Virus record (IMG/VR): IMGVR_UViG_3300043419_000731
Coordinates: 56,466 to 120,465 of that record
Length of the DNA: 64,000 bases
Source: a virus
Reading direction: 5' to 3' (one strand)
A model generated the notes under the pieces. The model did no database searches. It was not told the origin of the DNA and saw only the letters and a program-made list of their open reading frames with translations. Each line of letters starts with the position of its first letter. Within the stretch, counting starts at the first letter, position 1. A program made the position numbers and the translations under genes. Shown piece by piece: positions 12,308 through 51,847 of this stretch.

Positions 12308-12844
12308 TCACTTAATTGCGACTAATATCCCCATAGGGTATTTAACTAATTCAGCTTTACCTGCGAAGAACTCACGGACAGCCTTCTCAGGCCCTGTGGA
12401 TAACCCTTCATGGGTATTGCATATTACGTATCCACCTTCTACTACTCTTTCCCACATAAATTCTAGGGAGTCTTTTGTAGGCTGATACAGACTGCAGTCT
12501 AAATGCAGCAAAGATATATTTACATCTGCTATCTCAGAAAATCTTTCAGGGAACCAGCCCTTATAAAAAGCAACATTACTAAACTGTGATAAATTTATTT
12601 TTGCTATATCTAAATGCGTCTTCCAATTTAGGGTCTCATATAGATTGTTATCAAACTCACCAAGCTCTGATACACCTTCCCAGGAATCGAATAAGTGTAC
12701 TGTTGTTCTGCAGTTCTCTGCTAGCTTTCTTGCAGATGTTCCTAGGTATGTGCCGCATTCAACAAAGTCGCCTTTGATCAATGCCGCTCTCTTGGCTATC
12801 TCATCTATAGTGTCTAGCCATAAAGTAAAATCTGAATCCATCAT
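12308..12844 (-). CDS. TylF-like class I methyltransferase
   Basis: 178 residues. FVECGTYLGTSARKLAE is the SAM-binding motif I; LFDSWEGVSELGEFD and the LLHLDCSLYQPTKDSL block are typical of the TylF/MycF macrocin-type O-methyltransferase family, in which paired Asp ligands bind Mg. Here the second block reads HLDCSLYQPT, with Cys where the paralogue at 14850 has HIDTDLYEPT, so one metal ligand may be altered. Last gene of the cassette; overlaps the oxygenase by one base. Confidence 0.72.
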   Translation of the reverse strand: MMDSDFTLWLDTIDEIAKRAALIKGDFVECGTYLGTSARKLAENCRTTVHLFDSWEGVSELGEFDNNLYETLNWKTHLDIAKINLSQFSNVAFYKGWFPERFSEIADVNISLLHLDCSLYQPTKDSLEFMWERVVEGGYVICNTHEGLSTGPEKAVREFFAGKAELVKYPMGILVAIK

Positions 12845-13719
12845 TATTGTTTTATCTTTGCTTTCATTGCATCAATAGCAGGAGTTGCGATATTTGTGTC
12901 TTTTCCTTCACGGTGAAGATTATCTCTTTCAATAGCTTCAGCAATTACGTTTGCAAACTGTGGATTTATCTCTAATGGATTCATCCATTTTCCAAGCGAT
13001 GCCATAGTCTTGTCACCAATTTGCTCATAGTATTCTGGGCTCTTGTAGTTATAGAATGTTCCAGGGTTGTCTTCTGCTAATAGAATAAAGTTAGAAAAAG
13101 CGTATCTTGTTCCTGTTAGTGTTGGCTTAGTGCCATGATCGTATGGATATGCAGCACCATGGAATATTACATCTCCAGGCTTTGTTTCTACTACCAAGCA
13201 AGGCTCTAGTAATCTTTCCTGCCAAAGAGGTTCATAAACCTCATTGGATGACTTATCTAAATCTGGTTTTACGATACCATCAGGATTAATGTTTGGATAG
13301 TAAAGCTCTCCACCAGTATAATCTCCAAGGTATGCAATCATTCCATACTCTAACTCGCAGCATGTTTGCCAGGTATCAATCTCAACCAATAGGTTACAAT
13401 TTCCTTTTCCAGGGCTATCTGTATGAATAAACATTCCTTCATCAGTATTGTCTGTAACCATCAAGCTCATTACTGGGTGCCCTACTAGTTCTGGATAGAT
13501 AAGTTCTTCCATGAACTCCCAAAGAGGAAATAGTTCTATCCAAGAAGGACTCATTCTGTTCTCATACCAGTTTCTCATGCTCCAAGAATTAAAATTTGTA
13601 CCTTTTGTAAAATCTTTTGTTTTATCAATGATAGGGTCGTATATGTCTTTTGGAATTATATTCTCAAACTTGAATATACGATCTGCAATTTTAATGCATC
13701 TGGGATCATCATAAAACAT
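12844..13719 (-). CDS. 2OG-Fe(II) oxygenase (prolyl-4-hydroxylase type), copy 1
   Basis: 291 residues. MFIHTDSPGKG gives the H-x-D ligands, GDYTGGELYYP the core strand, GDVIFHGAAYPYDHGT the distal His region and TGTRYAFSNF the 2-oxoglutarate-binding Arg. It is a close paralogue of 13719-14564. The CCELEYGMIAYLGDYTGGELYY core relates it to the seven oxygenases at 33-39.5 kb. Substrate unknown; flanking methyltransferases suggest small-molecule or glycan tailoring. Confidence 0.8.
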   Translation of the reverse strand: MFYDDPRCIKIADRIFKFENIIPKDIYDPIIDKTKDFTKGTNFNSWSMRNWYENRMSPSWIELFPLWEFMEELIYPELVGHPVMSLMVTDNTDEGMFIHTDSPGKGNCNLLVEIDTWQTCCELEYGMIAYLGDYTGGELYYPNINPDGIVKPDLDKSSNEVYEPLWQERLLEPCLVVETKPGDVIFHGAAYPYDHGTKPTLTGTRYAFSNFILLAEDNPGTFYNYKSPEYYEQIGDKTMASLGKWMNPLEINPQFANVIAEAIERDNLHREGKDTNIATPAIDAMKAKIKQ

Positions 13720-14564
13720 TACTTGTATTCCTCCCAGGCTTCCTTCATGATCTCATTTTTTTCCTCTATTACTTCAGCAAACTGAGGGTTTAGCTTAAGA
13801 GGTCTGTGCCAGTCATTCAGCTGGTCTAATGTTGGAGGGTTATACTTTCCAATTTGCTCATACCAGTCAGGGCTCTTGTAGCTATGGAAACTTCCTACGT
13901 TAGATGCTGACTCTAGTGCAAAGTTTGAGAAAGCATATCTTGTTCCAGATATTACCTTCTTTGTTCCGTGCTCATATGGCACACAGGCTCCGTGCATAAC
14001 TATATCTCCAGGTTCTGGTGATACTACTAAGCAAGGCTCTGCTAATATTTCTTCATTAATCTCGTATACAGAGAATTGTCCTTTATCGGTAGGAGGTTTA
14101 ACTGTTCCGTCTGGATTAATGTGTGGGTAATAAATTTCTCCACCTGTAAAGTCTCCAAAATAAGCAATCATTCCATATTCTAGAGAGCAGCAGACTGACC
14201 ATGTGTCAATTTCATATAGGTCTCCGCTACCTTCTGGTCCTGGGCTATCTGCATGTACAAACATTCCCTCATCGTGAGGCTGTGAAATCATTAGGTTTGT
14301 TAGCGGGTGAATTACGTGGTCTGGATATAGAATCTCAGACATAAACTTCCATGCTTCAAATGTACTTACAAATGGAGGGCAAAACTTATCCTTGTACCAG
14401 CCGTTAGAGCTCCAAATGTTTTCAGGTCCGCCTCTTTTCCAAGAAGCTACATCTGCATGCACTGCGTCCATAATTTCTTTAGGAATTACATTTTTAAATA
14501 TAAAAATTCTAGGTGCTAATTGTTCGCATTTAGGATGATTTGTAAACACTATTTGGATCTCCAC
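13719..14564 (-). CDS. 2OG-Fe(II) oxygenase (prolyl-4-hydroxylase type), copy 2
   Basis: 281 residues from a GTG start inside the preceding small ORF (MEIQIVFTNHP). Ligands: MFVHADSPGPEG (H-x-D), PGDIVMHGACVPYEHGT (distal His), SGTRYAFSNFA (Arg). The two copies keep the same order and spacing along their whole length, so they look like a tandem duplication. The stop overlaps the next ATG. Confidence 0.8.
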   Translation of the reverse strand: MEIQIVFTNHPKCEQLAPRIFIFKNVIPKEIMDAVHADVASWKRGGPENIWSSNGWYKDKFCPPFVSTFEAWKFMSEILYPDHVIHPLTNLMISQPHDEGMFVHADSPGPEGSGDLYEIDTWSVCCSLEYGMIAYFGDFTGGEIYYPHINPDGTVKPPTDKGQFSVYEINEEILAEPCLVVSPEPGDIVMHGACVPYEHGTKKVISGTRYAFSNFALESASNVGSFHSYKSPDWYEQIGKYNPPTLDQLNDWHRPLKLNPQFAEVIEEKNEIMKEAWEEYK

Positions 14565-14849: not shown

Positions 14850-15488
14850 TCAATGCTTATATACTATTGCTTGTCCAGTAGGAAGCTCTAGAATATTATC
14901 TTGTCCAAAGTATTCAATCATTGCTTTTCTTGCTCCAATAGTTTTATATGAGCCATAGTCATCACAAATTAAAACTCCACCATTATTAAGGAGTGGCCAA
15001 AGGTGATTTATAGAATCCCTGGTTGGTTCATAAAGATCTGTGTCTATATGTACATACGAATATTTTAGTTGATCTATATTGCTAAATACATTTGGGATCC
15101 ATCCCTTATATAGCTCAACCTTAAAATTCTCTCTATCTAGATGAGATACAATTTTTTGCGCTATTTCCATAGGCATTGCTAGCTTTAGAGTTTTGAAATA
15201 ATCAGTATCAAATTCTCCAGGTTCAGAAACTCCTTCAAAAGAATCTATTCCTAGAAAACGCTCTTTGCATAAATCAGCAACAAAAAATATTGACATTCCA
15301 GCATATGTTCCACATTCAATAAAGTTGCCAGGGACTTTTGATTGCTGCTTTGCCAATTGACGAAGGATATACAGTCTTGCATATAAAGCAATATCAATAG
15401 GATTATTCATCCCATTAATTTCATTAAATTTTTGATGAAGCTTTACAAACTCAACATCGTCTTCCCATCTAGATAAATACGAATCCAT
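14850..15488 (-). CDS. TylF-like class I methyltransferase
   Basis: 212 residues. FIECGTYAGMSIFF (motif I), GIDSFEGVSEPGEFD, HIDTDLYEPTRDSI and LICDDYGSY give the full TylF set of SAM and metal residues. It is longer than, and related to, the 12308-12844 enzyme. TylF-type enzymes methylate sugar hydroxyls; the phage substrate is unknown. The stop of the upstream 69-aa gene lies 3 nt before its ATG. Confidence 0.75.
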   Translation of the reverse strand: MDSYLSRWEDDVEFVKLHQKFNEINGMNNPIDIALYARLYILRQLAKQQSKVPGNFIECGTYAGMSIFFVADLCKERFLGIDSFEGVSEPGEFDTDYFKTLKLAMPMEIAQKIVSHLDRENFKVELYKGWIPNVFSNIDQLKYSYVHIDTDLYEPTRDSINHLWPLLNNGGVLICDDYGSYKTIGARKAMIEYFGQDNILELPTGQAIVYKH

Positions 15489-23550: not shown

Positions 23551-26433
23551 GTGCCATTTAAAATTTTTGACGGTTCATCGTGGCTTCCATCTAAAAAAAT
23601 TAAAGTCAATACCGAACTTGGTATGCAAGACTATAAAAAGGCATTTATATTTGACGGCACAAACTGGGTTGAAGTTTTAGAAAAACCAAAAAATCTTACT
23701 GTTCCAGAGCTTTCCTTTTCTAGAGGACAAGAGCTTTATGGTGCAGATCAAACTGTAACAGCTACTAACGGAACCTGGGAAGGAACCGTATCATCTTACA
23801 AGTATCAGTGGCAAAAAGGAATATACGCTGGCTCTCAGATAGATTGGTCTGATATCACAGATGCAATAAACAATAGCTTTATTATACCAGGAGATTTAGT
23901 AGGGTATAAATTAAGATGTGCTGTAACTGCAGTAAATAATGCAGGAGATAGCGAAAAGGCATACGGAACAACAATTGGAATCATCCTTCCTGAATTTGTT
24001 CAAACAATAACAGCCTTTGTGCAACAAGATGCAGACGGATATGTAAATGGAAAGATAAGAGTGTTCTGGGATGTTTCAGAAGGTGCAGACGGATATTTAT
24101 TGATTTATCAAGGTCCTGGAATTGCTAGAACAGAAAAGAAAATTATTGGTAAAAGTAATAACCTGTTTGACTGGGATTTTGGTGCAACAAACGTTAATGA
24201 TCTAATAGGAATGACAAGCTTATCGATATACGTTGGCCCATACAATGATACAAGCTCTGCTGCAGCAGCATATAGAGCGGCTAACGGAATTGGTGATAGC
24301 CAAACACCAACATTCTATCAATCTGGAGGAATCAATGACCTTCTTCCAAAAAAACCAATTGTAACCTCTTTAGCAGTTGCAATTACACCGTATGTTTATG
24401 ACACAGCAATTCAAATGAGCTGGTCACTAAGTAATATAACTCAATCATCATTTTCAGCGGAGTATCAGTATTTTAACGATGAAACCCTAGAATATGGATG
24501 GGCACCTTACAGATCTGGAACAACAGAGCAAAGCGTTTACATGCCTATTGGACCAGGATTTAGTTTTGATGGATTAAGAGTTGTAGTTTCGGGAACTTCT
24601 AGAGGATTTGCAGGACCATTCATTGGCGTTTCTAATTCACCAACTTCTGCATATCTTGCACCAGCAATTTATACAAAACCATTCTTAACCCCAAGCACTA
24701 ATGTTCAAGTGGGAGAAGTTATATCTGCTACCCAAGGAGTATGGGATTATAACCCAACATCATATACTTTAGATATATTAAAAAATGGAGTTTCAGTAGC
24801 ATCTGGAACACAAAGCTGTTCATACACAACAGTATTATCAGATGCTAATGCTACATTTACTGTTAAAGCAAGTGCTACAAATCCAGGTGGCACAACAGAG
24901 TCTTACGGAGACTATTCAATACAATGCCTTAACACATCCACCGTCCCCGCAAACGGTGTTGCTCAAATTTATGGAACTGGTAGAGTTGGAACACAAATTA
25001 CAATGAGCACAAGCGGCTGGACAGGAAATCCAACTCCTTCAATAACTACAAGCTTGCAGCGCATGAACTACTCTGGAGGCTATGATGACATGGGAGTTAC
25101 ATCCTATACTGTACAAGAATCAGATCTTTCAGTTGGTTCAAAAGGCGGAACAATCGCTGCAATTTTTAGAGCACGAGCAACAGCTAGCAATATAGCGGGA
25201 TCAACTTCTGCCTATTCAGATTATCTTCAAGTTTCAAGTAATACATTTACAGTTCCAAGCTTCTTAGGTGGAGGAGTTCCACAAGGTGCAAGTAACTATA
25301 CTATTACAAATGGTGGAGCGCTATATAAAACAACAGCTCTAAGCCAAGCGGGTACAGTAGCAGCTCAGTATCCAACAGCAGGAACAACTGCAACTATTGG
25401 TGTAGATATCACAGTTTATACTTATTATTATGAGGCCGCTGCAGTACTTGCTTCTGGTGGGGTAGCTTCTATTTCTGGAAGTGGTCAGGTTGGTTCAACT
25501 ATTACTGCATCTGCTAGCGGATGGTCTGGAAGCCCAACTCCAACCGTAACAACTCAATTACAGCGCATGAATTATGCTGGAGGGTATGATGATATGGGTG
25601 TAACATCATACACCGTACAATCATCTGATCTAAGCGTTGGAACTAAGGGTGGTGCAATTCCACAATACTTCAGAGCAATTTCAAGAGCAACTAACTCAGC
25701 AGGAACTGCAGAAGTTTACTCTGATTATGTACAAGCAAGCGCAGCACCAGTAACTCCATCATTCCCATTCTTCCCTGACTTTGTGGCGCCACCGTCATTC
25801 CCTTACTTCCCAGCATTTAAGGCACCTTCATTCCCATTCTTCCCTGATTTTGTTGCACCGCCTTCATTCCCTTATTTCCCAGAATTTATGAAAGCACCAT
25901 CATTTGTAGCGCCACCTTCATTCCCATTCTTCCCTGACTTTGTTGCTGCGCCTTCATTCCCTTATTTCAAAGTTACAAAATGTATTGAGTCAAATACAAG
26001 ACTATTAACTTTTGATAGAGGATATGTTGCAGCTAGAGACATACAGCTAGGAGACAAGTTAGTTTCAATATCTGCAGAAGATTTCGGAAACGAATCAATG
26101 AAGTGGTTTAACATTAAAGATAATGTTAAGCTTGTAGAAGTTGAAGTTGTTAAATCTGAGATGTCAGTTAAAGATGTGTTGTCATTTAACGGAACAGAAA
26201 AGTACTTCTCTTATGGTCAACCAATATTCATTAAAAAAGACGGGCTTGCAACATGGATAGAGTCAGGCTCAGTTAACATTGGAGATGCATTACTAGAACT
26301 TGATCCCGCCACTGGTGAGATAAATGAAGTTATAGTTGACTCAATACAAGCAGATACAGACAAAGAAGTTTATGACATTAGAACATCAGGCAACCAATGG
26401 TTTATTGCAGAACAATTTATTGTTATAAGTTAA
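23551..26433 (+). CDS. Ig-like adhesin fibre with Phe-Pro tract and C-terminal Hint domain
   Basis: 960 residues from GTG (MPFKIFDGSSWLPSKK), with GGAGATATAA upstream. Several Ig/invasin-like repeats (for example SGWTGNPTPSITTSLQRMNY and a near-copy SGWSGSPTPTVTTQLQRMNY). Residues about 735-806 repeat PSFPFFPDFVAPPSFPYFP-like units. From Cys811 a 150-residue Hint (hedgehog/intein) fold follows: CIESNTRLLTFDRGY, GDKLVSI, then YGQPIF and NQWFIAEQFIVIS at the end. The block-B His is Gln and the C-terminal His-Asn is absent, so splicing is unlikely; cleavage or ester formation at Cys811 remains possible. Confidence 0.75.
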   Translation: MPFKIFDGSSWLPSKKIKVNTELGMQDYKKAFIFDGTNWVEVLEKPKNLTVPELSFSRGQELYGADQTVTATNGTWEGTVSSYKYQWQKGIYAGSQIDWSDITDAINNSFIIPGDLVGYKLRCAVTAVNNAGDSEKAYGTTIGIILPEFVQTITAFVQQDADGYVNGKIRVFWDVSEGADGYLLIYQGPGIARTEKKIIGKSNNLFDWDFGATNVNDLIGMTSLSIYVGPYNDTSSAAAAYRAANGIGDSQTPTFYQSGGINDLLPKKPIVTSLAVAITPYVYDTAIQMSWSLSNITQSSFSAEYQYFNDETLEYGWAPYRSGTTEQSVYMPIGPGFSFDGLRVVVSGTSRGFAGPFIGVSNSPTSAYLAPAIYTKPFLTPSTNVQVGEVISATQGVWDYNPTSYTLDILKNGVSVASGTQSCSYTTVLSDANATFTVKASATNPGGTTESYGDYSIQCLNTSTVPANGVAQIYGTGRVGTQITMSTSGWTGNPTPSITTSLQRMNYSGGYDDMGVTSYTVQESDLSVGSKGGTIAAIFRARATASNIAGSTSAYSDYLQVSSNTFTVPSFLGGGVPQGASNYTITNGGALYKTTALSQAGTVAAQYPTAGTTATIGVDITVYTYYYEAAAVLASGGVASISGSGQVGSTITASASGWSGSPTPTVTTQLQRMNYAGGYDDMGVTSYTVQSSDLSVGTKGGAIPQYFRAISRATNSAGTAEVYSDYVQASAAPVTPSFPFFPDFVAPPSFPYFPAFKAPSFPFFPDFVAPPSFPYFPEFMKAPSFVAPPSFPFFPDFVAAPSFPYFKVTKCIESNTRLLTFDRGYVAARDIQLGDKLVSISAEDFGNESMKWFNIKDNVKLVEVEVVKSEMSVKDVLSFNGTEKYFSYGQPIFIKKDGLATWIESGSVNIGDALLELDPATGEINEVIVDSIQADTDKEVYDIRTSGNQWFIAEQFIVIS

Positions 26434-31638: not shown

Positions 31639-32946
31639 ATGTCAAACAAAAAAGTAGGAATTAAATCTTCCGCCCAAGACAACTTCTTAGAGCCAAGTGC
31701 TGTAACGTCTTTATCAGCAACTGCTGTAAATGGCGGAAATAATGGAAATGGTACTGTTAACTTAACATGGTCACTTCCAGCCGCATCACCGCCAGCAACA
31801 CTTTACACAGTAACATCAAATCCAGCTACAACTACACAAACATCAGCTAGCACATCAATAACATTTAATGGGCTTACTGGAGGAACATCTTATACGTTTA
31901 CAGTAGTAGCTTCAAATGCAGCAGGAAATAGCTTGCCAACTAGCACCACATCTGGTGTTACACCAACTACACTTCCTAATGCGCCCTCAGCTCCAATAGC
32001 TTCTTCGCCAAATGCTAACCAGGACGTTATATCCTGGTCAGCACCATCTTCTAATGGTGGATCAACAATTACAGGATATAGATTAAAGTCCTCAGATGGT
32101 CCAACATATGATTATGATGCTAATACAACATCAGCAACAATTAGCGAATCAGCTGGAACAGCACAGACATATCAGGTTTTGGCAAAGAACTCGAATGGAG
32201 ATGGTCCGTACTCAGTATCAAGTAATACTATTACGACAACTGCTCCATTCTTCCCATTCTTCCCGCCATACTTCCCTTACTTCCCACCTTACTTCCCATA
32301 CTTCCCACCTTACTTCCCATTCTTCCCGTTCTTCCCACCGTTCTTCCCACCGTTCTTCCCGTTCTTCCCACCGTTCTTCCCACCGTTCTTCCCGTTCTTC
32401 CCACCGTTCTTCCCACCGTTCTTCCCATTCTTCCCACCGTTCTTCCCACCATACTTTGCAGCACCATCGTTCCCTTACTTTAAGGTAACAAAGTGTATTG
32501 CAGGAGATTCTGAAGTACTTACAACATCAGGATACAAGCCAGCAAAGGAATTAAATGTAGGAGATAAACTTCTTACAGTTGATCCAAAAGACTTCAATAA
32601 TGGTGAAATAACATCAGAGCTAAGTTTGCCAGACAAGGTATTCCTCTCTGAAACATCAATCGCCACTATCGAGTTGAGCCAAAAGGCACTGCTAAGCTTC
32701 AATGACTCACTGATTAAATTCTCAGACGCACAACCAATATTTGTGAAAGACGGAGAGTTTATTAAGTACAAGACAACTGGAGAAGTAGCTGTAGGAGATA
32801 TCCTTGCAGAAGTAAATCCAGAAACATGCCAGGTAACATACACAACAGTAGAAAAGATTACTGAGCATGAAGCAGGAGATGTCTACGATATCCGATGCTT
32901 ACCGAACCAGTGGTTCATCGTAGGAAATTATATAGTAATCTCCTAA
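31639..32946 (+). CDS. Fn3 fibre with Phe-Pro tract and C-terminal Hint domain
   Basis: 435 residues. Two fibronectin type III domains (about 15-110 and 115-200; TSYTFTVVASNAAGNS, STITGYRLKS). Residues about 203-281 are almost only Phe, Pro and Tyr (FFPPFFPPFFP units of 33 bp). Cys286 starts a Hint domain of 150 residues, the same size as in the 23551 protein: CIAGDSEVLTTSGYKPAKEL, VGDKLLTV, DAQPIF, NQWFIVGNYIVIS. Again Gln stands where Hint proteins have His and no terminal Asn is present. Confidence 0.75.
   Translation: MSNKKVGIKSSAQDNFLEPSAVTSLSATAVNGGNNGNGTVNLTWSLPAASPPATLYTVTSNPATTTQTSASTSITFNGLTGGTSYTFTVVASNAAGNSLPTSTTSGVTPTTLPNAPSAPIASSPNANQDVISWSAPSSNGGSTITGYRLKSSDGPTYDYDANTTSATISESAGTAQTYQVLAKNSNGDGPYSVSSNTITTTAPFFPFFPPYFPYFPPYFPYFPPYFPFFPFFPPFFPPFFPFFPPFFPPFFPFFPPFFPPFFPFFPPFFPPYFAAPSFPYFKVTKCIAGDSEVLTTSGYKPAKELNVGDKLLTVDPKDFNNGEITSELSLPDKVFLSETSIATIELSQKALLSFNDSLIKFSDAQPIFVKDGEFIKYKTTGEVAVGDILAEVNPETCQVTYTTVEKITEHEAGDVYDIRCLPNQWFIVGNYIVIS
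32246..32460 (+). repeat. Phe-Pro coding tandem repeat
   Basis: Units of 21 bp (YFPPYFP) then about four of 33 bp (FFPPFFPPFFP), using TTC and CCG/CCA almost only. The uniform codons and short units suggest recent expansion by slippage or recombination. Confidence 0.85.
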
Positions 32947-33052: not shown

Positions 33053-33805
33053 ATGAGTATTCAAGATACATGGTTTGATAAAGATAGATCTGAGACTTCT
33101 TCAAATAGAAGACCAGACAAAACATTTAATGGCATCACTGTTAAGAATGAGGCCCTAGGCTTAGATGTATACAAAAATGTATTTACATCTAGTCAGATTC
33201 AGAAATACATTAATGCGCTAGAAAATAATTTAAAGCCAGACACAGAGTTCTTCTGGAATGAAGCAAGAGTTACAAACTCTGAAACACCAATTAAAAAAGC
33301 AAGAGATTGCGTAGACTTTAAGATGAACTACGCCTCACTTGGCGGAGCACAGAATCAAAAGAATGCTGAGCTTTGGGAAACATATGATGAGATCTACAAA
33401 GCCCTAAAATCATGCGTGGACGACTATTGCAGGTACTGGGGAATCAATGTTACATACTATGAGGTTTTTAACTTTGTAAAGTATGAAGGCGAAGGCAAAG
33501 AGTTTAAGATTCATGCTGATGATGGACCAGCATACAAAGCAGCCGTATCTGCAGTTATTTATTTAAACAATGACTATGAAGGCGGAGAGATAGCTTTCCC
33601 AAGAATGGATAATTTGGTAATTAAGCCAGACCTTGGGGATATTGCAATATTCCCATCAAACTATATTTACGAGCATGCTTCACTTCCCATTAGATCTGGA
33701 ACAAAGTATTGCGTAGTTATTATGATGGACTTAAATGATTTAGCTCATCAAAATAATAGAATGCAAGGAAGCCCTTCTGCATTCGGAAAAGAATCAGGAT
33801 ATTAA
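33053..33805 (+). CDS. 2OG-Fe(II) oxygenase, array member 1
   Basis: 250 residues. FKIHADDGP gives the H-x-D ligands, AVIYLNNDYEGGEIAFP the core strand shared by the array, YEHASLPI the distal His and SGTKYCVV the cofactor-binding position, here Lys as in many prolyl-4-hydroxylase-type enzymes. The family hydroxylates Pro or Lys in proteins, or small molecules. First gene behind promoter and strong ribosome site. One base separates it from the next gene. Confidence 0.82.
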   Translation: MSIQDTWFDKDRSETSSNRRPDKTFNGITVKNEALGLDVYKNVFTSSQIQKYINALENNLKPDTEFFWNEARVTNSETPIKKARDCVDFKMNYASLGGAQNQKNAELWETYDEIYKALKSCVDDYCRYWGINVTYYEVFNFVKYEGEGKEFKIHADDGPAYKAAVSAVIYLNNDYEGGEIAFPRMDNLVIKPDLGDIAIFPSNYIYEHASLPIRSGTKYCVVIMMDLNDLAHQNNRMQGSPSAFGKESGY

Positions 33806-33806
33806 T

Positions 33807-34502
33807 ATGCAAGCAGAAACTAAAGAAATTGATTTTAAAGCTGAATGGGCAGAGCCAATCAAGCAGACCTGGACAGAAAAGATTGATCTAGGTTCTGGCA
33901 TTTGGCTATACAAGAATGTTATCCCAACAGATATCCCAGCTAGACTGGAAGAACTATTAGCAGACCCATCTAACCCGTATAACTGGATGGAAGCTTTTGT
34001 GGGGTACCAACAGAGTATGCCAGAGTATAGAGACTGTGTTGACTTTAAGTATAAGAAGACAGATATTAATGACCCAAGCGAAGCTGGACAAAAGCTAGTA
34101 AAGATTTGGGAGGAGTGCTATGAGCCACAAAGACAGGCTGTAAGAGATTACTCTAGAATGTATAATATTAATCAGCTTAGATACTGGGAAGCATTCAACT
34201 TTATTAGATATACACCAGGAAATCACTTTATGGAGCACCACGATCATGGATACTCATATAACTGCACAGTTTCACTTGTAGGATATTTTAATGATGACTA
34301 CGAAGGTGGAGAGCTATACTTTAGACTTCAGAACTTAAATCTAAAGCCAGAAGCTGGAGATCTTTTTATCTTCCCTTCAACATATATGTATCCACACCAA
34401 GCCAAAAAGGTGCACTCAGGAACAAAGTACTCAATTGTAACAATGCTTGATTACAGCGAGAAGTTCCATGATCCAAAGTTTTTCCAAGAGACTGGAAACT
34501 AA
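33807..34502 (+). CDS. 2OG-Fe(II) oxygenase, array member 2
   Basis: 231 residues. NHFMEHHDHGYSYNC has the H-x-D ligands, SLVGYFNDDYEGGELYF the core, YMYPHQAKKV the distal His and HSGTKYSIV the Lys position. Full-length and in order. Its TAA overlaps the next ATG, so translation is coupled. Confidence 0.82.
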   Translation: MQAETKEIDFKAEWAEPIKQTWTEKIDLGSGIWLYKNVIPTDIPARLEELLADPSNPYNWMEAFVGYQQSMPEYRDCVDFKYKKTDINDPSEAGQKLVKIWEECYEPQRQAVRDYSRMYNINQLRYWEAFNFIRYTPGNHFMEHHDHGYSYNCTVSLVGYFNDDYEGGELYFRLQNLNLKPEAGDLFIFPSTYMYPHQAKKVHSGTKYSIVTMLDYSEKFHDPKFFQETGN

Positions 34503-35218
34503 TGATTAACCTTACAGCCTATCAGATGGGCACAGAAACTGCATCGGTTGAGCCTTTGCAAGTAACTAGAGACTGGATGGATGCAACACCAGAAAAGCAT
34601 GCATACCATTGTTTTCCAGTAACTCAAGCCAATACTGTAGGCTGGACAATCTCTATGCCAGTAGATATTAAATTTATTTGGGATGGAGTAAATGATACAA
34701 GCGGGAATCATATAGAGATACTAGAGGGCAATAGCTTTGTTTATACAGGAAGAGGTCAGTCTTCTGTAAGCTTTAATACAAACCTATTGTTTAGATCAGA
34801 AAGCAATGTTAGCTTATTAACAATGACACCACCTAACTATTTTAATCCAGATTATCAAGTTATTGGTTCTGTTATATCTACATCATTTTTTAGAAACCCT
34901 CTACCGCTTGCAATTAAAGCATTGACTCCAAATAAAGAAATTTTAATACCTGCAGGAACACCAATTGCAACAATATTGCCAATATCTTTATCTGAACTCA
35001 AAGACTCTGTTGTAGAGGTTAAAAAGTTTCCTCAAGAAGATATGTATGAGTGGAATGAAAAGAATAGAGCCTATGGAGATGCAGCTCAAGTCTTATCCAC
35101 AAAGGGCGAGTGGACTGATTGGTATAGAGATGCTGTTGATCAAGACGGCAACAAGATTGGTGAACACGAAGCTAAATCACTTAAGCTTAAAACAGTATAC
35201 GTAGATACAGAGGTATAA
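34502..35218 (+). CDS. unknown protein, DUF6065-like, copy 1
   Basis: 238 residues. Segments YHCFPVTQANTVGWTISMPV and EILIPAGTPIATILPIS, shared in outline with the next gene (TPCDIEFI, GILPAGTPYAQMLPFK). I recall similar proteins (possibly DUF6065) next to 2OG oxygenases in aquatic phages, without a known function. A beta-rich fold is likely. Inserted between oxygenases 2 and 3. Confidence 0.5.
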   Translation: MINLTAYQMGTETASVEPLQVTRDWMDATPEKHAYHCFPVTQANTVGWTISMPVDIKFIWDGVNDTSGNHIEILEGNSFVYTGRGQSSVSFNTNLLFRSESNVSLLTMTPPNYFNPDYQVIGSVISTSFFRNPLPLAIKALTPNKEILIPAGTPIATILPISLSELKDSVVEVKKFPQEDMYEWNEKNRAYGDAAQVLSTKGEWTDWYRDAVDQDGNKIGEHEAKSLKLKTVYVDTEV

Positions 35219-35950
35219 ATGTCTAACACCATTAAGTTTGTCAGTAATAGACCATGGCTAACAAAAGATAGCTCTTCAAAGCCAGAACCTATCATAAAGT
35301 CTATTCCAGATTGGTATAGAAAAGCTGACAGATTTGCTAAAAAACCAGATGGAGAATATTGGCAAGATCCTACAATTGGGGGAAAGATTCCTACATGGAA
35401 AGCTTGTCCAGCAATATTTGACATTATGGGAACAGGATATACGCTAAGAACTCCGTGTGATATTGAATTTATAAAGGGTGACTTCGGATCAATTGATTTT
35501 AAAATCTCTGATCCAAAGTATAAAGATTTTTGTACCAAAAGAGAACCTATGCCACAATTTCATCAGCCAGAGGGATACTATGCAATTCACTTTGCTTGGT
35601 TCCCAGATTGGGCTATAGAGACTCCAGAAGGATACAGTGTTCTTTACTCACAGCCTTTCAATAGATTTGAGTTGCCATTCCTAACTACATCTGGAATCAT
35701 TGATAATGATAAGGTAAACTTGCCAGGGTCAATGCCTTTCTTTTTGCAAAAAGGTTTTAGTGGAATTCTTCCAGCAGGAACTCCTTACGCACAGATGCTT
35801 CCATTTAAAAGAGAAGACTGGGAGCATGAGATTGTTATAGAAAAAGCTTCAAAGCTACAAAGTAAAAATATGGAAAACTCAGCAAAATATAGAAAGCCAG
35901 ACGGCGGAATATACAAAAACGAAGTATGGTCTAAGAGAACATACTCATGA
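35219..35950 (+). CDS. unknown protein, DUF6065-like, copy 2
   Basis: 243 residues. PIIKSIPDWYRKADRFAK, TWKACPAIFDIMGTGYTLRTPCDIEF and SGILPAGTPYAQMLP. Paralogue of the gene before, with the Pro-Ala-Gly-Thr-Pro motif conserved. One base separates the two genes. Function unknown; may act with the oxygenases. Confidence 0.5.
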   Translation: MSNTIKFVSNRPWLTKDSSSKPEPIIKSIPDWYRKADRFAKKPDGEYWQDPTIGGKIPTWKACPAIFDIMGTGYTLRTPCDIEFIKGDFGSIDFKISDPKYKDFCTKREPMPQFHQPEGYYAIHFAWFPDWAIETPEGYSVLYSQPFNRFELPFLTTSGIIDNDKVNLPGSMPFFLQKGFSGILPAGTPYAQMLPFKREDWEHEIVIEKASKLQSKNMENSAKYRKPDGGIYKNEVWSKRTYS

Positions 35951-35956
35951 GGATGG

Positions 35957-35962
35957 TATAAT
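35957..35962 (+). promoter_or_regulatory. -10 box for a leaderless gene
   Basis: TATAAT preceded by TGG, exactly 6 nt before the ATG at 35969. It allows members 3-7 to be expressed without the first genes. Confidence 0.6.
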
Positions 35963-35968
35963 TAAATT

Positions 35969-36643
35969 ATGGAAGATAAAACATTAGCTAACGGTCCTGC
36001 AAACTGGGACAATCGTACTTCAATAACTCCTCCAGGATTCTTTGGTAATACTCCAGAGCATATCCAGGCAAGAGAAAATTTTATGACTGAAGAAGAAAGA
36101 ACCTTTTTATTAGAAGCAGCAAAGTCTATTACGGAGTGGGATAGAACAGAAACACACTACAATGATGATGGAGTAATTATCTATGACTCAACATATTGGG
36201 ATAACCGTGTTGCTTCAAGACCGATCCTGGACTCTATAAATCCAGAGATATCAAATGTTATCGAAAAGCTCGTAGCTAGACTTAAAGTTGAAGTTGATAA
36301 TCACTTTAAGGTAGACGCTATGCCAACAAGCCCAGCTATTGTTAGATGGATGGAAGGATATAGACAAGAGCCACATGCAGACAAGCAATTGCAGAATGGC
36401 GAGCCTAATGATTTCCCATGGTATGACCTAGCTGGTCTATTTTACTTAAATGATGATTATGAGGGTGGAGAGCTTTACTTCATGCATCACGATATTGAAT
36501 TTAAGCCAAAGCCAGGAGCAGCATACTTCTTCCCAGGAGATGTTGGGTATAGCCATGGTGTAAGAGAAATAAAGAGCGGTATTAGATATGTTATTCCGTT
36601 CTTCTGGACTATTATGAAGCATACAGGAGATAAGCAGCCTTGA
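35969..36643 (+). CDS. 2OG-Fe(II) oxygenase, array member 3
   Basis: 224 residues. YRQEPHADKQLQNG (H-x-D), GLFYLNDDYEGGELYFMHH (core), VGYSHGVREI (distal His), KSGIRYVIPFFW (Arg). Closest in pattern to the classical prolyl-4-hydroxylase catalytic domain. Probably leaderless. The stop overlaps the next start codon. Confidence 0.82.
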   Translation: MEDKTLANGPANWDNRTSITPPGFFGNTPEHIQARENFMTEEERTFLLEAAKSITEWDRTETHYNDDGVIIYDSTYWDNRVASRPILDSINPEISNVIEKLVARLKVEVDNHFKVDAMPTSPAIVRWMEGYRQEPHADKQLQNGEPNDFPWYDLAGLFYLNDDYEGGELYFMHHDIEFKPKPGAAYFFPGDVGYSHGVREIKSGIRYVIPFFWTIMKHTGDKQP

Positions 36644-37380
36644 GTAAACAATGCACATGTGGAAGATCTCAGTCTTATCCTTTTTGCGATAACACTCACG
36701 CTCAGCCATCACATCCAGTAATTCAAACAATCAATCCTCATGCATTTAGCTACTTTAATAAAAAGGATTCTGCGGAGAATGTTGTTGTTCAAGTTCCCAA
36801 GTTTATCTCTAAGGGTATGTCAAAAGACCTAATTGATGTTTTTGAAAAGGATGAGCTGTGGCAGGATGTTGGATTCCACAAGGCAAGTAATTTATTTCAT
36901 ATAGATTTTGCAGGCAATAAAGAACTTGCTGATCTGTGGGAAGAGCTTGTTTCAACTATTAAAAGGGCTACAGAAATAGTATTTAAAGACAAGGTTGTAA
37001 ACACTGGCTTATATATTCAAAAATGGCCAGAAGGATCGTATGGAATAAAACATAATGATATGTACAATTTTGATGGAAGCATCGGCAATTTAACATCCAG
37101 AATAGCAACAACCTTATTCTTGCACTCACCTTTTACTGGAGGGAATTTAGAGTTCCCAGATCATGAGCTAGCTATTGAGCCTAAGATGGGGTCACTGTAT
37201 TTGTTCAAAGGTGGACCAGACAACGAACATCAAATTGCAGAAATAACATCTGGATTAAGATATACAGTTATTGCATTTTGGGATTTTGAAAGCTCAACCT
37301 ATACCGATGAAGAATTACAGGGTATGGAAGATAGCAAGAAGAAGTGGGAAAATTATATGAAGACAGGTGAGGGGCTATGA
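36640..37380 (+). CDS. CDGSH iron-sulfur domain fused to 2OG-Fe(II) oxygenase, array member 4
   Basis: 246 residues from TTG. Residues 5-20, CTCGRSQSYPFCDNTH, fit the CDGSH pattern C-x-C-x2-S-x3-P-x-C-D-x2-H that holds a [2Fe-2S] cluster. Then the oxygenase: GIKHNDMYNF (H-x-D), FTGGNLEFPDH (core), DNEHQIAEI (distal His), SGLRYTVIAFWDF (Arg). A cluster next to a mononuclear iron enzyme could supply electrons or sense redox state; I know of no characterised example. Overlaps both neighbours. Confidence 0.78.
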   Translation: MSKQCTCGRSQSYPFCDNTHAQPSHPVIQTINPHAFSYFNKKDSAENVVVQVPKFISKGMSKDLIDVFEKDELWQDVGFHKASNLFHIDFAGNKELADLWEELVSTIKRATEIVFKDKVVNTGLYIQKWPEGSYGIKHNDMYNFDGSIGNLTSRIATTLFLHSPFTGGNLEFPDHELAIEPKMGSLYLFKGGPDNEHQIAEITSGLRYTVIAFWDFESSTYTDEELQGMEDSKKKWENYMKTGEGL

Positions 37381-38174
37381 CAAAAGACTTAGAGTTTATT
37401 ACGATATATCCTAGAATAAATGTTTATAGAAATACATTTAAAGATGTAGAAAAATTTTTAGAGCAAGCAAAGTCAGAAGAGGGATGGATTCAGTGGTATA
37501 CCTTTGGACAAATGCTGCCTCTCCAAGAAGCGCCTCTTGATTTTGACCATTTCCCAACAAAAGAAGAGTATATTAAGCTAAGAGATTCACAGCCATCTTC
37601 TCAAAAGAATTTAACAGATGAGATAGGTGAAATATTCTACGACGTAACAAAGCATTGGTTAGACATGAATCCAGATATGGGATTAATTAATTACCATAAG
37701 GGATCAGCATCAATTAATATCTATAAGAATGAAGCTGGGTTATCAGAAAACTACTCTATGAATTATCATACAGATTTTGTTGTACCTCTTAGAGATGCAC
37801 CAGGAACCAAGTTTGGCATTACAACAACATTTTATTTGAATGACGATTATGAAGATGGAGAGATCTGTTTTAAGATTGGAGATCATTTTATATCTCACAA
37901 GCCTAAAGCAGGAGATGTTATTGTATTCCCATCAAGAGACCCATACTACCATGCAGTAAGAAAGTCTTCTGGTAACAATAGATATATGATCAGATCATTC
38001 TGGGAGTACAACTTCCCTGGTACCGATGAGTGGCTTGCTGGACAAGCAGAGCACGGTGAAGAAAAATGGGCTGAGATGGAAAAGATCAGGTTTAAAAAAG
38101 AGATAGAAGGCACACAGCAGCAAGCTGAAGATGTTCACGAATTCTTTGGGAGAGACAACGGTAAATACTTATGA
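37377..38174 (+). CDS. 2OG-Fe(II) oxygenase, array member 5
   Basis: 265 residues. MNYHTDFVVP (H-x-D), TFYLNDDYEDGEICFKIG (core), DPYYHAVRKS (distal His), NNRYMIRSFWEY (Arg). A long Glu/Lys-rich C-terminal helix follows. ATGA-type overlaps with both neighbours. Confidence 0.82.
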   Translation: MTKDLEFITIYPRINVYRNTFKDVEKFLEQAKSEEGWIQWYTFGQMLPLQEAPLDFDHFPTKEEYIKLRDSQPSSQKNLTDEIGEIFYDVTKHWLDMNPDMGLINYHKGSASINIYKNEAGLSENYSMNYHTDFVVPLRDAPGTKFGITTTFYLNDDYEDGEICFKIGDHFISHKPKAGDVIVFPSRDPYYHAVRKSSGNNRYMIRSFWEYNFPGTDEWLAGQAEHGEEKWAEMEKIRFKKEIEGTQQQAEDVHEFFGRDNGKYL

Positions 38175-38935
38175 AAAATGGAATGATTGATGTAATAGAT
38201 CCTGATAAGTTTATTATTTTACAGGATGAGGTTGTACCAGAAGAAAAAGCTGGGGTGCTAGGCGTTTATACAAATAAGATAGTTGAGATCCCAAACTTTA
38301 TTGACCCAGAAGTTGTTCCAAAGATGATTAACTTTTTTGAAAATTGCGACGTAGACTGGGGAGATATTGCATTTTATGGATCTTCAGGCAAAGGTATTTT
38401 AACTGATGCCACCACAATGGAAAAGTTTGGATTGCCAGATGGATTCTTTGATAAACTAAAAGACAAGTATCAGGAAGCAGTTACAACTGTATTTGGCAGA
38501 GAGGTAAGAGCAAATACTTCTCATGCACAGAAATGGGATGTGGGAGGATTTGCATCACCACACTCAGACAATTCAAATAATGAAGGAAAACCAAATGCAT
38601 TTGAGATTAATAAATACGTAGGCATTTTATATCTAAATGATGATTATGAAGGTGGAAATCTTTATTTCTGTGACAAAGATAAAGAGATGGAGCCATATCT
38701 ATCATTTAAGCCAAATGCATACTCTTACTATGTTTTCCCAGGAGGATATGAAAATATTCATGGAGTTGCTGAGATCACAGCTGGAACGAGATATACAATG
38801 GTTTCATTCTGGGACTTTGCAGATTTAGAATATGACGAAGAGACTCTAGAGCGCTGGAAAGAAGAAGAGCGCCAGGTTAGAGTTGAGCAGGCCGCACAGA
38901 AAGAAGAGTGGGAAAAGGGTAACAAGTATGCCTAA
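38171..38935 (+). CDS. 2OG-Fe(II) oxygenase, array member 6
   Basis: 254 residues. FASPHSDNSNN (H-x-D), GILYLNDDYEGGNLYFCDKD (core), YENIHGVAEI (distal His), AGTRYTMVSFWDF (Arg). Ends in a charged helix. Overlaps the next gene by 8 nt. Confidence 0.82.
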   Translation: MKNGMIDVIDPDKFIILQDEVVPEEKAGVLGVYTNKIVEIPNFIDPEVVPKMINFFENCDVDWGDIAFYGSSGKGILTDATTMEKFGLPDGFFDKLKDKYQEAVTTVFGREVRANTSHAQKWDVGGFASPHSDNSNNEGKPNAFEINKYVGILYLNDDYEGGNLYFCDKDKEMEPYLSFKPNAYSYYVFPGGYENIHGVAEITAGTRYTMVSFWDFADLEYDEETLERWKEEERQVRVEQAAQKEEWEKGNKYA

Positions 38936-39524
38936 CCTTGAAAAGTTTGGCAAGATTCATTATTACAAAAATGTAATTGCTGATCCCGCATCTTTAATAG
39001 ATTTAATTGAAACATTAGACGAAGAGTTAACAGACGATACATCTATCCCAAAATGGCAAGAGTGGTCAGCAAGTGGAGATATCCCATATGTATTTGGATA
39101 TCAAAAAAGATTTAAGGATGGCGTAGATACTGACGATAATCCCAAAATACGTGAGATAAACAATATTTTAAAAGAAGCAATAATAGAATCATCAAATGAC
39201 TATGCCAACATTTATCAGGCAGAGCTAGGCATGCTTATGCCAATATCTGTTAGCAAATATTCTACAACAAAATCCATGGGGCCACATGTAGATGATTATG
39301 GAAATGAAGATAATCCAAACATTTCAGTTGTTCTTTATCTTAACGATGATTATGAAGGCGGAGAGCTTTACTTTAAAGATCAGGATGTAAAGATAAAGCC
39401 AGAGGCTGGGAGTATAGTAATTTTCCCATCTATTGAGCCTTATTATCACGAATCCCTACCAGTTGTTTCTGGCACAAAGTATATGTGTCCAGGATTCTGG
39501 CGTAAAACTAACAAGGTGGTATAA
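38928..39524 (+). CDS. 2OG-Fe(II) oxygenase, array member 7
   Basis: 198 residues. The start MPNLEKFGKI at 38928 is chosen because AAGGG lies 6-7 nt upstream; the frame opens further upstream inside member 6. MGPHVDDYGNED (H-x-D), VVLYLNDDYEGGELYF (core), YYHESLPVV (distal His), SGTKYMCPGFW (Lys). Shortest member. The collagen-like fibre starts 7 nt downstream. Confidence 0.82.
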   Translation: MPNLEKFGKIHYYKNVIADPASLIDLIETLDEELTDDTSIPKWQEWSASGDIPYVFGYQKRFKDGVDTDDNPKIREINNILKEAIIESSNDYANIYQAELGMLMPISVSKYSTTKSMGPHVDDYGNEDNPNISVVLYLNDDYEGGELYFKDQDVKIKPEAGSIVIFPSIEPYYHESLPVVSGTKYMCPGFWRKTNKVV

Positions 39525-39531: not shown

Positions 39532-40749
39532 ATGAGTACAACAGGTAAAGGCTTTCATTATCCAGTCTACACAGACACTCCAGACGTCCCTAGAGACCTA
39601 GAGCAGCTAGCAAGAGACGTAGACGCATATCTTGATGCCCATCCAGGCCCACAAGGTGAACAGGGTCCTGCAGCAACAGTAGCAGTTGGAACTGTTGAGG
39701 TTTTGCCACCAGGATCAACGCCAGAGGTTATTAATGTTGGAAACTCAAATGATGCAGTATTTAACTTTAAGATTCCCAGAGGAGTAGATGGGGTTCTTGG
39801 AGGACCTGGACCTGCGAATGAACTTTCTATAAATCCTACAATTACAGGAGAAGCTGGTACGCAGGCAAGCGTTGTTATATCGGGAACTGCTCCATCACAA
39901 ACTTTAACATTTACAATTCCAAAAGGCGACAAAGGTGAGACTGGCGCAAAAGGAGACAAAGGAGATACTGGAGAGCAAGGTCCAGCTGCCGCAACAATAT
40001 CTGTATCACCAACAACTGTAACAGGAGCCCCTGGAACAAATGCATCCGTTACAAATTCTGGCACATCAAGTGCTGTTGTTTTAAACTTTACAATTCCTAG
40101 AGGCGCAACAGGAGCAACAGGAGCAGCTGGCGCAGATGGCGCTCAAGGTCCTGCAGGAGCAGATGGTGTAACACCATCACTTGATCCTTTAACTCAAGTA
40201 ATAAGCTTAAACGTTCCAAATGGTGCAGGAGACGGAGTTAACTCACATTGGTACCCATTAGCATCTGGATCCTATTCTTTAGGAAAAGATGCTACAAGCG
40301 GTACAGCAAGATACTGGAGAGATGTTTTTGCAACAGGAACAGTTAGAGCCGCATCTGTCATCGCATCTGGAAATATGTATATCAATACATCAACTATTGT
40401 AACTTCAGATCAAAATTTAAAAAACAATATTAACACTTCTGACTTAGGTCTTGATTTTATTAATTCATTAAATCCAGTAAGCTATAAGTATAATGTTGGC
40501 GGGATAGACTATGTTCTTAACAATGATGGAACACATACAGAAGTTGAAGTCCCTGGAACTAGAACACACTACGGCTTAATTGCACAAGAAGTAAAGCAAG
40601 CACTAGATGAAGCTGGAGTAGAAGATTTTGGCGGATGGGTACAGCAAGAAGATAATACTCAGGCATTAAGATATGAAGAGTTTATATCTCCACTAATTAA
40701 AGCGGTACAAGAACTTACAGCGAGAGTTAAAGCACTAGAAGAGGCGTAA
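39532..40749 (+). CDS. collagen-like fibre with S74 intramolecular chaperone
   Basis: 405 residues. Three Gly-x-y blocks: GPQGEQGPA (about 39-47), KGDKGETGAKGDKGDTGEQG (about 136-155) and GATGATGAAGADGAQGPAGA (about 190-209), separated by beta-rich segments. The C-terminus, from TSDQNLKNNI (Ser-Asp and Lys of the catalytic dyad) through HYGLIAQEV to the coiled end, is the S74 (endosialidase-type) chaperone that trimerises fibres and then cuts itself off. Collagen-like triple helices are substrates of prolyl hydroxylases in other systems, and seven such genes lie just upstream. Confidence 0.85.
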   Translation: MSTTGKGFHYPVYTDTPDVPRDLEQLARDVDAYLDAHPGPQGEQGPAATVAVGTVEVLPPGSTPEVINVGNSNDAVFNFKIPRGVDGVLGGPGPANELSINPTITGEAGTQASVVISGTAPSQTLTFTIPKGDKGETGAKGDKGDTGEQGPAAATISVSPTTVTGAPGTNASVTNSGTSSAVVLNFTIPRGATGATGAAGADGAQGPAGADGVTPSLDPLTQVISLNVPNGAGDGVNSHWYPLASGSYSLGKDATSGTARYWRDVFATGTVRAASVIASGNMYINTSTIVTSDQNLKNNINTSDLGLDFINSLNPVSYKYNVGGIDYVLNNDGTHTEVEVPGTRTHYGLIAQEVKQALDEAGVEDFGGWVQQEDNTQALRYEEFISPLIKAVQELTARVKALEEA

Positions 40750-50385: not shown

Positions 50386-51075
50386 ATGGCACAAAACACA
50401 GGTAATGCTAAAAATATTCTTGTTGGTGCGTCACCATTGTTCCTTTCGAACATCGACATCACAACATCAGGATATGTAGAAAATGCAGAGCCAGGAGCAG
50501 TAGGAGACTACGCTTTTGAGTCTGGAATTTCTTTCACAAAGACACTTAACGACATCGACCAGGTAGCTGGCGATTTCGGATACCGCAACGTAGGTTACAC
50601 AAATAACGGTCTTCAGGTTACATACAACCCATCATACGGTTCAGTAACAGTTGATCAGCTTCTTGATACAGCAAAGCTTTTCAAGGAGTCAATGGAAGTT
50701 ATGATCGCAACAGAAATGGCAGAAGGTACTCTTGAGAACGTTCTTACAGTATTCGGTCAGCGTTCAAACACACTTACATCAGCAGGAACAGGCGCAACAG
50801 CAACCGACAAGCTCGGTCTTGCAGGTGGTGCACTTGGTGAGGCTCCAACAGAGCGTCAGCTTATTGCAGTAGGACAGGCTCCAACATCTGAAGCAACAGC
50901 AACTGAGCGTGTATACTATGCACGTCGTGTTCTTTCTGTACAGCAGTCACAGTTCTCTCTGGCTCGTAACGCAGCATCAACATTCCCAGTAACATTCCGT
51001 TTGCTACCATCAGGTGATTCAGCAAACGCTGGTCAGGAATATGGTTTCATCGTAGACCGTGTTCTAACAGTATAA
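50386..51075 (+). CDS. major tail (tube) protein
   Basis: 229 residues with AGGAGG 8 nt upstream. Ala/Thr/Gly-rich, with the beta-rich pattern expected for a tube protein. It is the gene immediately before the two tail-chaperone frames. Its codon choice is cleaner (TTC, CGT, GGT) than neighbours, like the capsid gene, suggesting high expression. Confidence 0.78.
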   Translation: MAQNTGNAKNILVGASPLFLSNIDITTSGYVENAEPGAVGDYAFESGISFTKTLNDIDQVAGDFGYRNVGYTNNGLQVTYNPSYGSVTVDQLLDTAKLFKESMEVMIATEMAEGTLENVLTVFGQRSNTLTSAGTGATATDKLGLAGGALGEAPTERQLIAVGQAPTSEATATERVYYARRVLSVQQSQFSLARNAASTFPVTFRLLPSGDSANAGQEYGFIVDRVLTV

Positions 51076-51096
51076 TTAATTTATTAATTAATAGAG

Positions 51097-51122
51097 ACCC
51101 CCTAAGAAATTAGGGGGTTTTC
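51097..51122 (+). terminator. intrinsic terminator after the tail tube gene
   Basis: ACCCCCTAA / TTAGGGGGT with a GAAA loop, then TTTCT. Confidence 0.88.
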
Positions 51123-51124
51123 TA

Positions 51125-51153
51125 TTGCTCTAATATTTATGATATGATACAAT
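51125..51153 (+). promoter_or_regulatory. sigma-70-type promoter for the tail chaperones
   Basis: TTGCTC (51125-51130), 17 nt, TACAAT (51148-51153) extended by TGA. AGGAGG precedes the TTG at 51183. Confidence 0.6.
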
Positions 51154-51182
51154 AATTAAGACTAGATCCTAGGAGGATTAAA

Positions 51183-51515
51183 TTGGCAACTACAGTATAT
51201 GATGTTGAAGAGATTCAGCTACAGAATGGCGCAACAGTTAAGCTCAAGCCTTTAACAATTAAAGAGCTTCGTGAGTTTATGAAAGTCATTAATAAGACAC
51301 AAGAAGTAACAACAGAAGACGAAACACTAACTATTTTGATTGAGGCATGCGGAGTGGCTTTGCAAAAGCAGCTTCCAGATCTTGTCGCAGATCGAGACGC
51401 ATTTGAAGACACACTTGACGTTCCAACTATCAATCGCATTCTAGAAGTTTGCGGAGGAATTAAGATGGACGACCCAAACCAACTAGCGGCAATGGTTCTG
51501 GCTGGGCAGAACTAG
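51183..51515 (+). CDS. tail assembly chaperone G
   Basis: 110 residues from TTG (MATTVYDVEEIQLQNGATVKL). KLKPLTIKELREFMKVINKT is typical of the tail assembly chaperones of siphoviruses. It is the product of normal termination at TAG 51513; a fraction of ribosomes should shift frame at 51473-51479. Confidence 0.82.
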   Translation: MATTVYDVEEIQLQNGATVKLKPLTIKELREFMKVINKTQEVTTEDETLTILIEACGVALQKQLPDLVADRDAFEDTLDVPTINRILEVCGGIKMDDPNQLAAMVLAGQN

Positions 51516-51847
51516 ACTTAGCCGCTTTAGAGGGGGAAGTTTTTCTTTTAGGTAATTGGGTAAATTACGAGCAGTTAGAAGAAAGCCTTTCAATGCCAGA
51601 ATTAGTCCAGACATTTAAATCAATGCAAAAAACTGAATCGGAGAAAAGAAAGTTCTTAGCTTCAATCCAGGGTGTAGATTTAAATGAAAGCAGTAATGAA
51701 AATGAAGGGAGTTCCTCCTTCGAAGATGTTAAAAGACGGGCACTTGGAATAACTGCATCATCTGATGATGTTGTTTCACTACAAGGGTCATTTGCAGCGG
51801 AAGCTGGTTTTGGCGTTGGAGCAGGATTAGGATACCGAATAGAGTAA
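51183..51847 (+). CDS. tail assembly chaperone GT (programmed -1 frameshift product)
   Basis: The -1 frame is open from 51464 to 51847 and reads AELDLAALEGEVFLLGNWVN, a normal chaperone T-domain sequence, with no ribosome site of its own. The heptamer CCCAAAC (51473-51479) lies in the overlap in the right frame (C CCA AAC). The shift gives about 221 residues, 99 of G and 122 of T. Together G and GT coat the tape measure during tail assembly. Confidence 0.82.

Follow-up and report, generated by a model that had tools for sequence, protein, structure and literature searches.

We analyzed a window of 64,000 nucleotides (the whole stretch of DNA considered here, bases 56466-120465 of the 120,465-base IMG/VR record IMGVR_UViG_3300043419_000731), which derives from a lake-phage genome. 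Positions 33053-39524 of this window hold a cassette with seven genes for 2-oxoglutarate (2OG)-Fe(II) oxygenases. It is well supported that these are distinct, selected enzymes of the prolyl 4-hydroxylase (P4H) type, and that their cassette is conserved, mobile and associated with a tail protein rich in proline. Our preferred reading, to which we give about even credence, is that the cassette is a module for hydroxylating virion proteins, with the proline-rich tail protein as its main target and a CDGSH-type iron-sulfur element reactivating the iron.

A first-pass annotation had described the region as seven oxygenases in tandem. There are indeed seven complete open reading frames (ORFs) on the + strand, but two other genes, D1 and D2, interrupt them between copies 2 and 3. 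The annotation overlooked these two genes, as well as the adjoining proline-rich tail protein, the CDGSH element and the conservation across phages. The result is a co-directional block of nine genes in the order O1-O2-D1-D2-O3-O4-O5-O6-O7. The oxygenases, all on the + strand and given here with their catalytic residues and their expectation values (E) against PF13640, are O1 (33053..33805; HAD..H..K; 2.9e-11), O2 (33807..34502; HHD..H..K; 3.9e-13), O3 (35969..36643; HAD..H..R; 1.2e-8), O4 (36640..37380; HND..H..R; 1.8e-6), O5 (37377..38174; HTD..H..R; 3.6e-8), O6 (38171..38935; HSD..H..R; 1.2e-8) and O7 (38928..39524; HVD..H..K; 3.4e-14). For O7, the ATG at 38928 is a likelier start than the TTG at 38883, and most orthologues begin at the position of this ATG. 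Because neighboring genes mostly overlap or nearly touch, the cassette is probably a single transcription unit with translational coupling.

This arrangement recurs in other phages, and viral contigs contain about 110 distinct relatives of it. Using O7 as the query, we found 71 contigs, while D1 and D2 as queries led to 80 loci, nearly all of one architecture (L and G numbers below are labels for the related viral contigs and records that we compared with the window). The order (O1)-O2-D1-D2-O3-(O4)-O5-O6-(extra)-O7 recurs in the O7-seeded contigs and also in the D2-seeded loci, and some cassettes have extra oxygenase copies. Accessory genes for SDR, aldo/keto reductase, TauD, IMPDH and GSHPx proteins occur in some cassettes, and about 19 to 25 cassettes contain a recurring protein of approximately 159 residues that has no Pfam match (L146:15606-16085 and relatives). 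One O6-type ORF, at L053:6551-7993, has approximately 480 residues, double the usual length, and is possibly a fusion.

All seven oxygenases of the cassette score above the curated cut-off of PF13640 (>27 bits; E from 1.8e-6 to 3.4e-14). The H-x-D, distal His and Arg/Lys positions that had been reported for the seven copies are present in each of them, so that the metal-site residues are complete. Among 99 dereplicated copies from the window's record and its relatives, 98 keep the pattern HxD..H..K/R, and the remaining one has HxE. A confident AlphaFold2 model of O7 (predicted local distance difference test score, pLDDT, 89.6) has a P4H/PHD2-like double-stranded beta-helix fold, a finding that concerns copy 7 only. 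Its top Foldseek match is the viral collagen prolyl hydroxylase of PBCV-1 (5c5t; E = 3e-10; TM-scores of 0.64 and 0.75 when normalized by the lengths of model and target, respectively), followed by human PHD2, and a Pseudomonas P4H solved with EF-Tu is also among the matches. When an O7 profile was compared with the PDB, the hits were PKHD-type, P4H, P3H1 and LH3 hydroxylases. No AlkB- or TET-type family match arose among the cassette oxygenases in the profile scan or the fold search. We also considered a defence system and rejected it: PADLOC assigned the oxygenases only a generic CRISPR-associated 2OG profile, and gave nothing for D1 and D2.

The claim that the copies have distinct roles, rather than adding dosage, is supported. 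The copies in the cassette and their three relatives elsewhere in the record share 15-38% pairwise identity (with 51% between X1 and X2, described below). Slot orthologues in the O7-seeded contigs are mostly about 40-100% identical, and each slot is closer to its counterparts in other phages. A maximum-likelihood tree of the 99 dereplicated copies groups each of O1, O2, O3 and O5 into a single clade with 98-100% bootstrap support, and O6 and O7 are nearly monophyletic; the deep joins are unsure because several branches are long. The most constant oxygenase slot is O2, which is strongly conserved and 94% identical to that of the relative L004. Nonsynonymous divergence (dN) from L004 is low in every slot (0.04-0.21), as expected if all of them are under purifying selection; synonymous divergence is saturated. 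Judged by their sequences, the cassette's copies are old, specialized enzymes rather than recent duplicates, because the slots are orthologous across phages (with about 40-95% identity) while copies within the genome are so diverged.

The number of copies is, by itself, a poor guide to what is unusual here. It had been supposed that phages usually carry one or two such genes. In cyanomyoviruses, however, there are up to about ten: we counted ten PF13640 matches in S-WAM1, and S-SZBM1 has nine annotated 2OG-Fe(II) oxygenase copies (PMC9146016). High copy number is therefore not unusual in itself, and we discarded it as a mark of rarity. What stands out is how the genes are organized.

The proposed main substrate is encoded immediately upstream of the cassette (31639..32946, + strand). 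The protein contains one or more fn3 domains (PF00041, E = 3.6e-14), an 80-residue proline/aromatic stretch at residues 202-281 of the PFFPPFFPFFPP type (the PFFPPFFP repeat) and a Hint/intein-like C-terminus. In relatives, the upstream protein likewise combines fn3 domains with a long repeat of the PFFPPFFP type, and it often ends in a Hint/intein-like region, for which the intein match is below the cut-off. In 84 of 93 testable loci, such a repeat protein directly precedes the cassette; in most others it lies slightly further upstream. To avoid circularity, we also ran a scan of viral contigs that was blind to the oxygenases, using a DNA pattern that represents only the PFFPPFFP-type repeat. 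Among the matches listed, an oxygenase lies at most 2.5 kb downstream in 78 of the 85 repeat loci with at least 2.5 kb of downstream sequence, and, after dereplication, in 67 of 74. One exception, L196, follows a collagen-like gene, and another, L168, is a second repeat gene on the contig of L160, whose own repeat gene precedes a cassette. In L149, a short repeat of 6 motifs is paired with a cassette reduced to O2 and D2 (L149:6572-9421); the same contig encodes a 229-residue protein with no Pfam hit that is sulfotransferase-like in appearance. Since the cassette adjoins the proline-rich tail protein in most related contigs, it is suggested that these phages modify their own tail proteins.

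A further candidate substrate follows the cassette. This gene (39532..40749, + strand) encodes a collagen-like tail-fibre protein with an S74 chaperone domain (Peptidase_S74, E = 2.1e-14) and GXY runs of 4, 7 and 8 triplets. A collagen-like fibre gene follows the cassette in many relatives and is absent from others.

The cassette also contains a CDGSH-type [2Fe-2S] motif, CTCGRSQSYPFCDNTH, at the N-terminus of O4 (36652..36699, + strand; zf-CDGSH, E = 4.7e-6). The 3-Cys-1-His ligand motif of the CDGSH domain (PF09360) is present; the match of O4 to this family scores 27.2 bits, below the cut-off of 29.5, and covers only profile positions 32-48. We made a six-frame scan of 196 cassettes with four or more oxygenase genes, in which loci were not dereplicated and the window was not counted; 76 of them have the motif, exactly one each. 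Its location varies: it is in O6 in 34 of these cassettes, in O5 in 20 and in O4 in 4, while the remaining 18 have it outside the oxygenases. For example, in L019 it is a 39-residue ORF between O5 and O6. Because it is fused to different members or free, and never doubled, its distribution suggests that the element serves the array as a whole. We infer that its role is to re-reduce iron.

D1 (34502..35218, + strand) is present in nearly all cassettes and belongs to DUF6065 (PF19541, E = 9e-31; 107.6 bits versus a cut-off of 26.6). D2 (35219..35950, + strand) had no Pfam hit in the same scan and matches phrog_7084 (E = 2e-31). Its AlphaFold2 model (pLDDT 83.8) has a dUTPase-like (beta-clip) predicted fold, aligning to the dUTPase 2y8c with a VIA-align Z of 10.2 and a root-mean-square deviation of 2.6 over 120 residues, with a Foldseek E of only 2e-3. 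D2 retains a motif-III-like GIIDND, where D1 has other residues. D2 is probably a diverged relative of D1: a profile alignment of the two gives E = 5e-5 but a probability of only 67%, so their homology is likely, not certain. We counted 204 D2 proteins, of which about 110 are distinct. Relatives of D2 also occur in haloarchaeal tailed viruses (haloviruses), where HSTV-2 gene 40 (L074:5818-6687) adjoins thymidylate synthase.

The cassette appears to move between phages. Streptomyces phages such as Sham, Faust and LilMartin have major capsid proteins with 56-60% identity to the window's, so the genome is that of a tailed phage, whose host is probably an actinobacterium. LilMartin and Sham, which are cultured relatives by capsid, lack any PF13640 match; between the ribonucleotide reductase and the portal, their structural module has endolysin and two hypothetical genes, but no cassette. 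In six records of 78-136 kb (G001 and G016-G020) we detected no relative of either the portal or the capsid protein of the window, which for the portal does not prove absence since these records may be fragments. Nevertheless, their cassettes match the window's with 54-66% identity in O2 and 66-70% in D2. Conversely, G002 and G003 are close to the window in portal (81-82%) and capsid (91-92%), yet their O2 is only 50% and their D2 48% identical. The ribonucleotide reductase of G016 belongs to phrog_84 and that of the window to phrog_367, and G019 has virion structural proteins of phrog_5838. Cassette records that lack the window's capsid gave no match to the T4-type capsid PF07068, but the controls gave none either. 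The evidence that cassette and capsid have discordant histories is strong, and this discordance indicates transfer of the cassette between phages.

We infer the substrate, the specificity for proline, the reactivation of iron and the role of D1 and D2 along the following lines. Each P4H/PHD2-like oxygenase would act at a sequence context of its own, where it would hydroxylate side chains, probably those of prolines, with the help of Fe(II), O2 and 2-oxoglutarate. As main substrate we propose the adjoining tail protein with its PFFPPFFP repeat; collagen-like GXY fibres, where present, would be a second one. The single CDGSH [2Fe-2S] element would re-reduce iron oxidized in uncoupled turnover, on behalf of the whole array, and the dUTPase-fold pair D1/D2 would be a scaffold or a substrate-binding part. 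Hydroxylation would stiffen or otherwise alter a fibre that contacts the receptor and, in some phages, would yield attachment points for sugars. In the most far-reaching version, which we advance tentatively and hold to be less likely than not, ordered and diverged prolyl hydroxylases would work with a scaffold pair of dUTPase fold and a single, shared CDGSH redox element that moves from enzyme to enzyme. Together they would form a dedicated, horizontally mobile phage system that hydroxylates a tail protein with proline/aromatic repeats at multiple sites, and in some phages the hydroxylated residues would then be glycosylated.

Several observations weigh against the hydroxylation of a tail protein or against parts of this scheme. 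The numbers of oxygenases and of repeats are uncorrelated (Spearman 0.17, p 0.16), and the L066 cassette has no repeat protein upstream in the DNA examined. Proximity to the repeat protein could reflect a shared insertion site and ancestry. In the stretch examined, 120 of the 196 cassettes are without a CDGSH element. The record does encode a GlcNAc-transferase of PF11397 (E = 1.1e-30; L002:7595-8584, at approximately 50594-51583 of the record and outside the window), which directly follows a 2OG oxygenase with H-x-E instead of H-x-D (the pair lies at L002:6878-8584), and PF11397 includes the GlcNAc-transferase that acts on hydroxyproline of Skp1. However, this family is found in only 8 of 45 related records, so glycosylation would be optional, not general. 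Finally, the accessory SDR, aldo/keto reductase, TauD, IMPDH and GSHPx genes equally fit small-molecule chemistry.

A rival explanation is that the oxygenases tailor a small molecule or glycan stepwise, such as a sugar of the virion or host surface, and that the tail-protein neighbor merely marks an insertion site. In its favor, TylF-type methyltransferases lie near X1 and X2, other parts of the record have genes for carbamoyltransferase, pyridoxal phosphate (PLP) enzyme, sulfotransferase-like and GlcNAc-transferase proteins, and some cassettes contain SDR, aldo/keto reductase, TauD and IMPDH genes. In addition, the biosynthetic hydroxylase PolD of Streptomyces cacaoi (9blq) is among the fold matches of O7. 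However, the accessory genes are rare and vary by cassette, while the repeat protein is nearly constant, and the nearest folds are those of protein hydroxylases. We consider this explanation unlikely. It is rather less probable still that the enzymes hydroxylate several host proteins, such as translation factors and ribosomal proteins, for takeover of the cell. A set of diverged enzymes would suit several targets, and one of the nearest folds is that of the Pseudomonas P4H in its EF-Tu complex, but the genes are part of a tail/structural module, next to a virion-type protein, even in phages whose capsid genes are unrelated, and genes for host takeover are usually early genes located elsewhere.

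We give little weight to an action on DNA or nucleotides, i.e., repair or hypermodification, with D1 and D2 handling nucleotides. This would accord with the dUTPase fold of D2, with the thymidylate synthase beside its HSTV-2 relative and with the repair function proposed for cyanophage copies (PMC9146016). However, the oxygenase folds are P4H/PHD2-like, with no match to AlkB- or TET-type families, and the genes are in the tail module, not near replication genes. The explanation that we find hardly credible is recent tandem duplication or dosage, with no distinct functions. The genes do belong to one family, lie side by side and are supplemented by extra copies in some cassettes, but the low identity of the copies, the orthology of slots over wide divergence and the low dN in each slot are at odds with this idea, and the tree contradicts it; copy divergence and tree together rule out recent duplication.

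Other features of the record relate to these subjects less directly. Two distant 2OG oxygenases lie outside the cassette, namely X1 (12844..13719, minus strand) and its paralogue X2 (13719..14564, minus strand; 51% identical). They have no Pfam hit, and were recovered by their motif and by a custom profile built from the oxygenase set. The first-pass annotation proposed ten oxygenases in the window; with X1 and X2, which keep the motif, there are nine, but the cupin at 10258 has only a sub-threshold match to JmjC_2 (21.3 versus 22 bits). Three further PF13640 genes, in the 120-kb record outside the window, give 12 oxygenases in total. TylF-type O-methyltransferases flank X1 and X2 (12308-12844 and 14850-15488, minus strand). 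The record also encodes a NodU/CmcH-type carbamoyltransferase (L001:1235-2680) and, elsewhere, a PLP enzyme and sulfotransferase-like genes. A second protein with a proline/aromatic repeat and a Hint-like end is encoded at 23551..26433 (+ strand), as seen from its sequence. This copy and that at 31639-32946 finish in VIS, while the relatives L113 and L128 finish in HNK, so self-processing may differ between these relatives and the window. The Hint-like C-terminus, when used as a query, found one relative only.

Virus-encoded protein hydroxylases are already known from algal viruses, as are multi-copy oxygenases from cyanophages. In the literature that we searched, we found no precedent for an organized cassette with D1/D2 and a roaming CDGSH element, and nothing on either DUF6065 or hydroxylated phage tail proteins; the PFF-repeat protein and D1 have no match in the annotated phage collection. 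For 2OG oxygenases of aquatic phages, where multiple copies are common and unexplained, the published suggestions are DNA repair (PMC9146016) or nitrogen metabolism. A cassette linked to a tail protein offers a concrete substrate candidate. If our reading is true, phages would make post-translationally hydroxylated fibres, like the collagen of algal viruses and animals, and the single roaming CDGSH element would indicate a route to sustaining several 2OG enzymes without ascorbate.

Among known systems, the cyanomyoviruses share with the cassette PHROG 61 and a high copy number, and S-WAM1 also has a run of oxygenase genes after tail-fibre genes. However, cyanomyovirus copies are only about 30-36% identical to those of the cassette, and the copies of S-SZBM1 are described as scattered (PMC9146016). 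In S-WAM1, an unrelated cyanophage (L275, 33.5-36.8 kb of its record), a putative tryptophan halogenase also precedes the oxygenase run. With mitoNEET-type CDGSH iron-sulphur proteins, many cassette relatives share the exact pattern C-x-C-x2-S-x3-P-x-C-D-G-T-H, but the cassettes hold only a short putative cluster-binding segment, either fused to an oxygenase or in a 39-residue ORF. In the Skp1 pathway of Dictyostelium, a P4H-type enzyme is combined with a GlcNAc-transferase of the PF11397 family, and the window's genome has both, once adjacent; that pathway is eukaryotic, with one hydroxylase and one target, whereas the transferase is optional in the cassette phages. The Skp1 pathway is the topic of PMC3515798. 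The viral collagen prolyl hydroxylase of PBCV-1 (vCPH), which goes with hydroxyproline-containing viral proteins, resembles the cassette's enzymes in fold, being the best match of O7, and in its kind of catalytic motif. A passage of PMC9301287 that cites Eriksson 1999 describes it as a virus-encoded prolyl hydroxylase with viral peptide substrates. It is the enzyme of an algal virus, whereas here a phage cassette has seven or more diverged enzymes, together with DUF6065 and CDGSH components, beside a tail protein.

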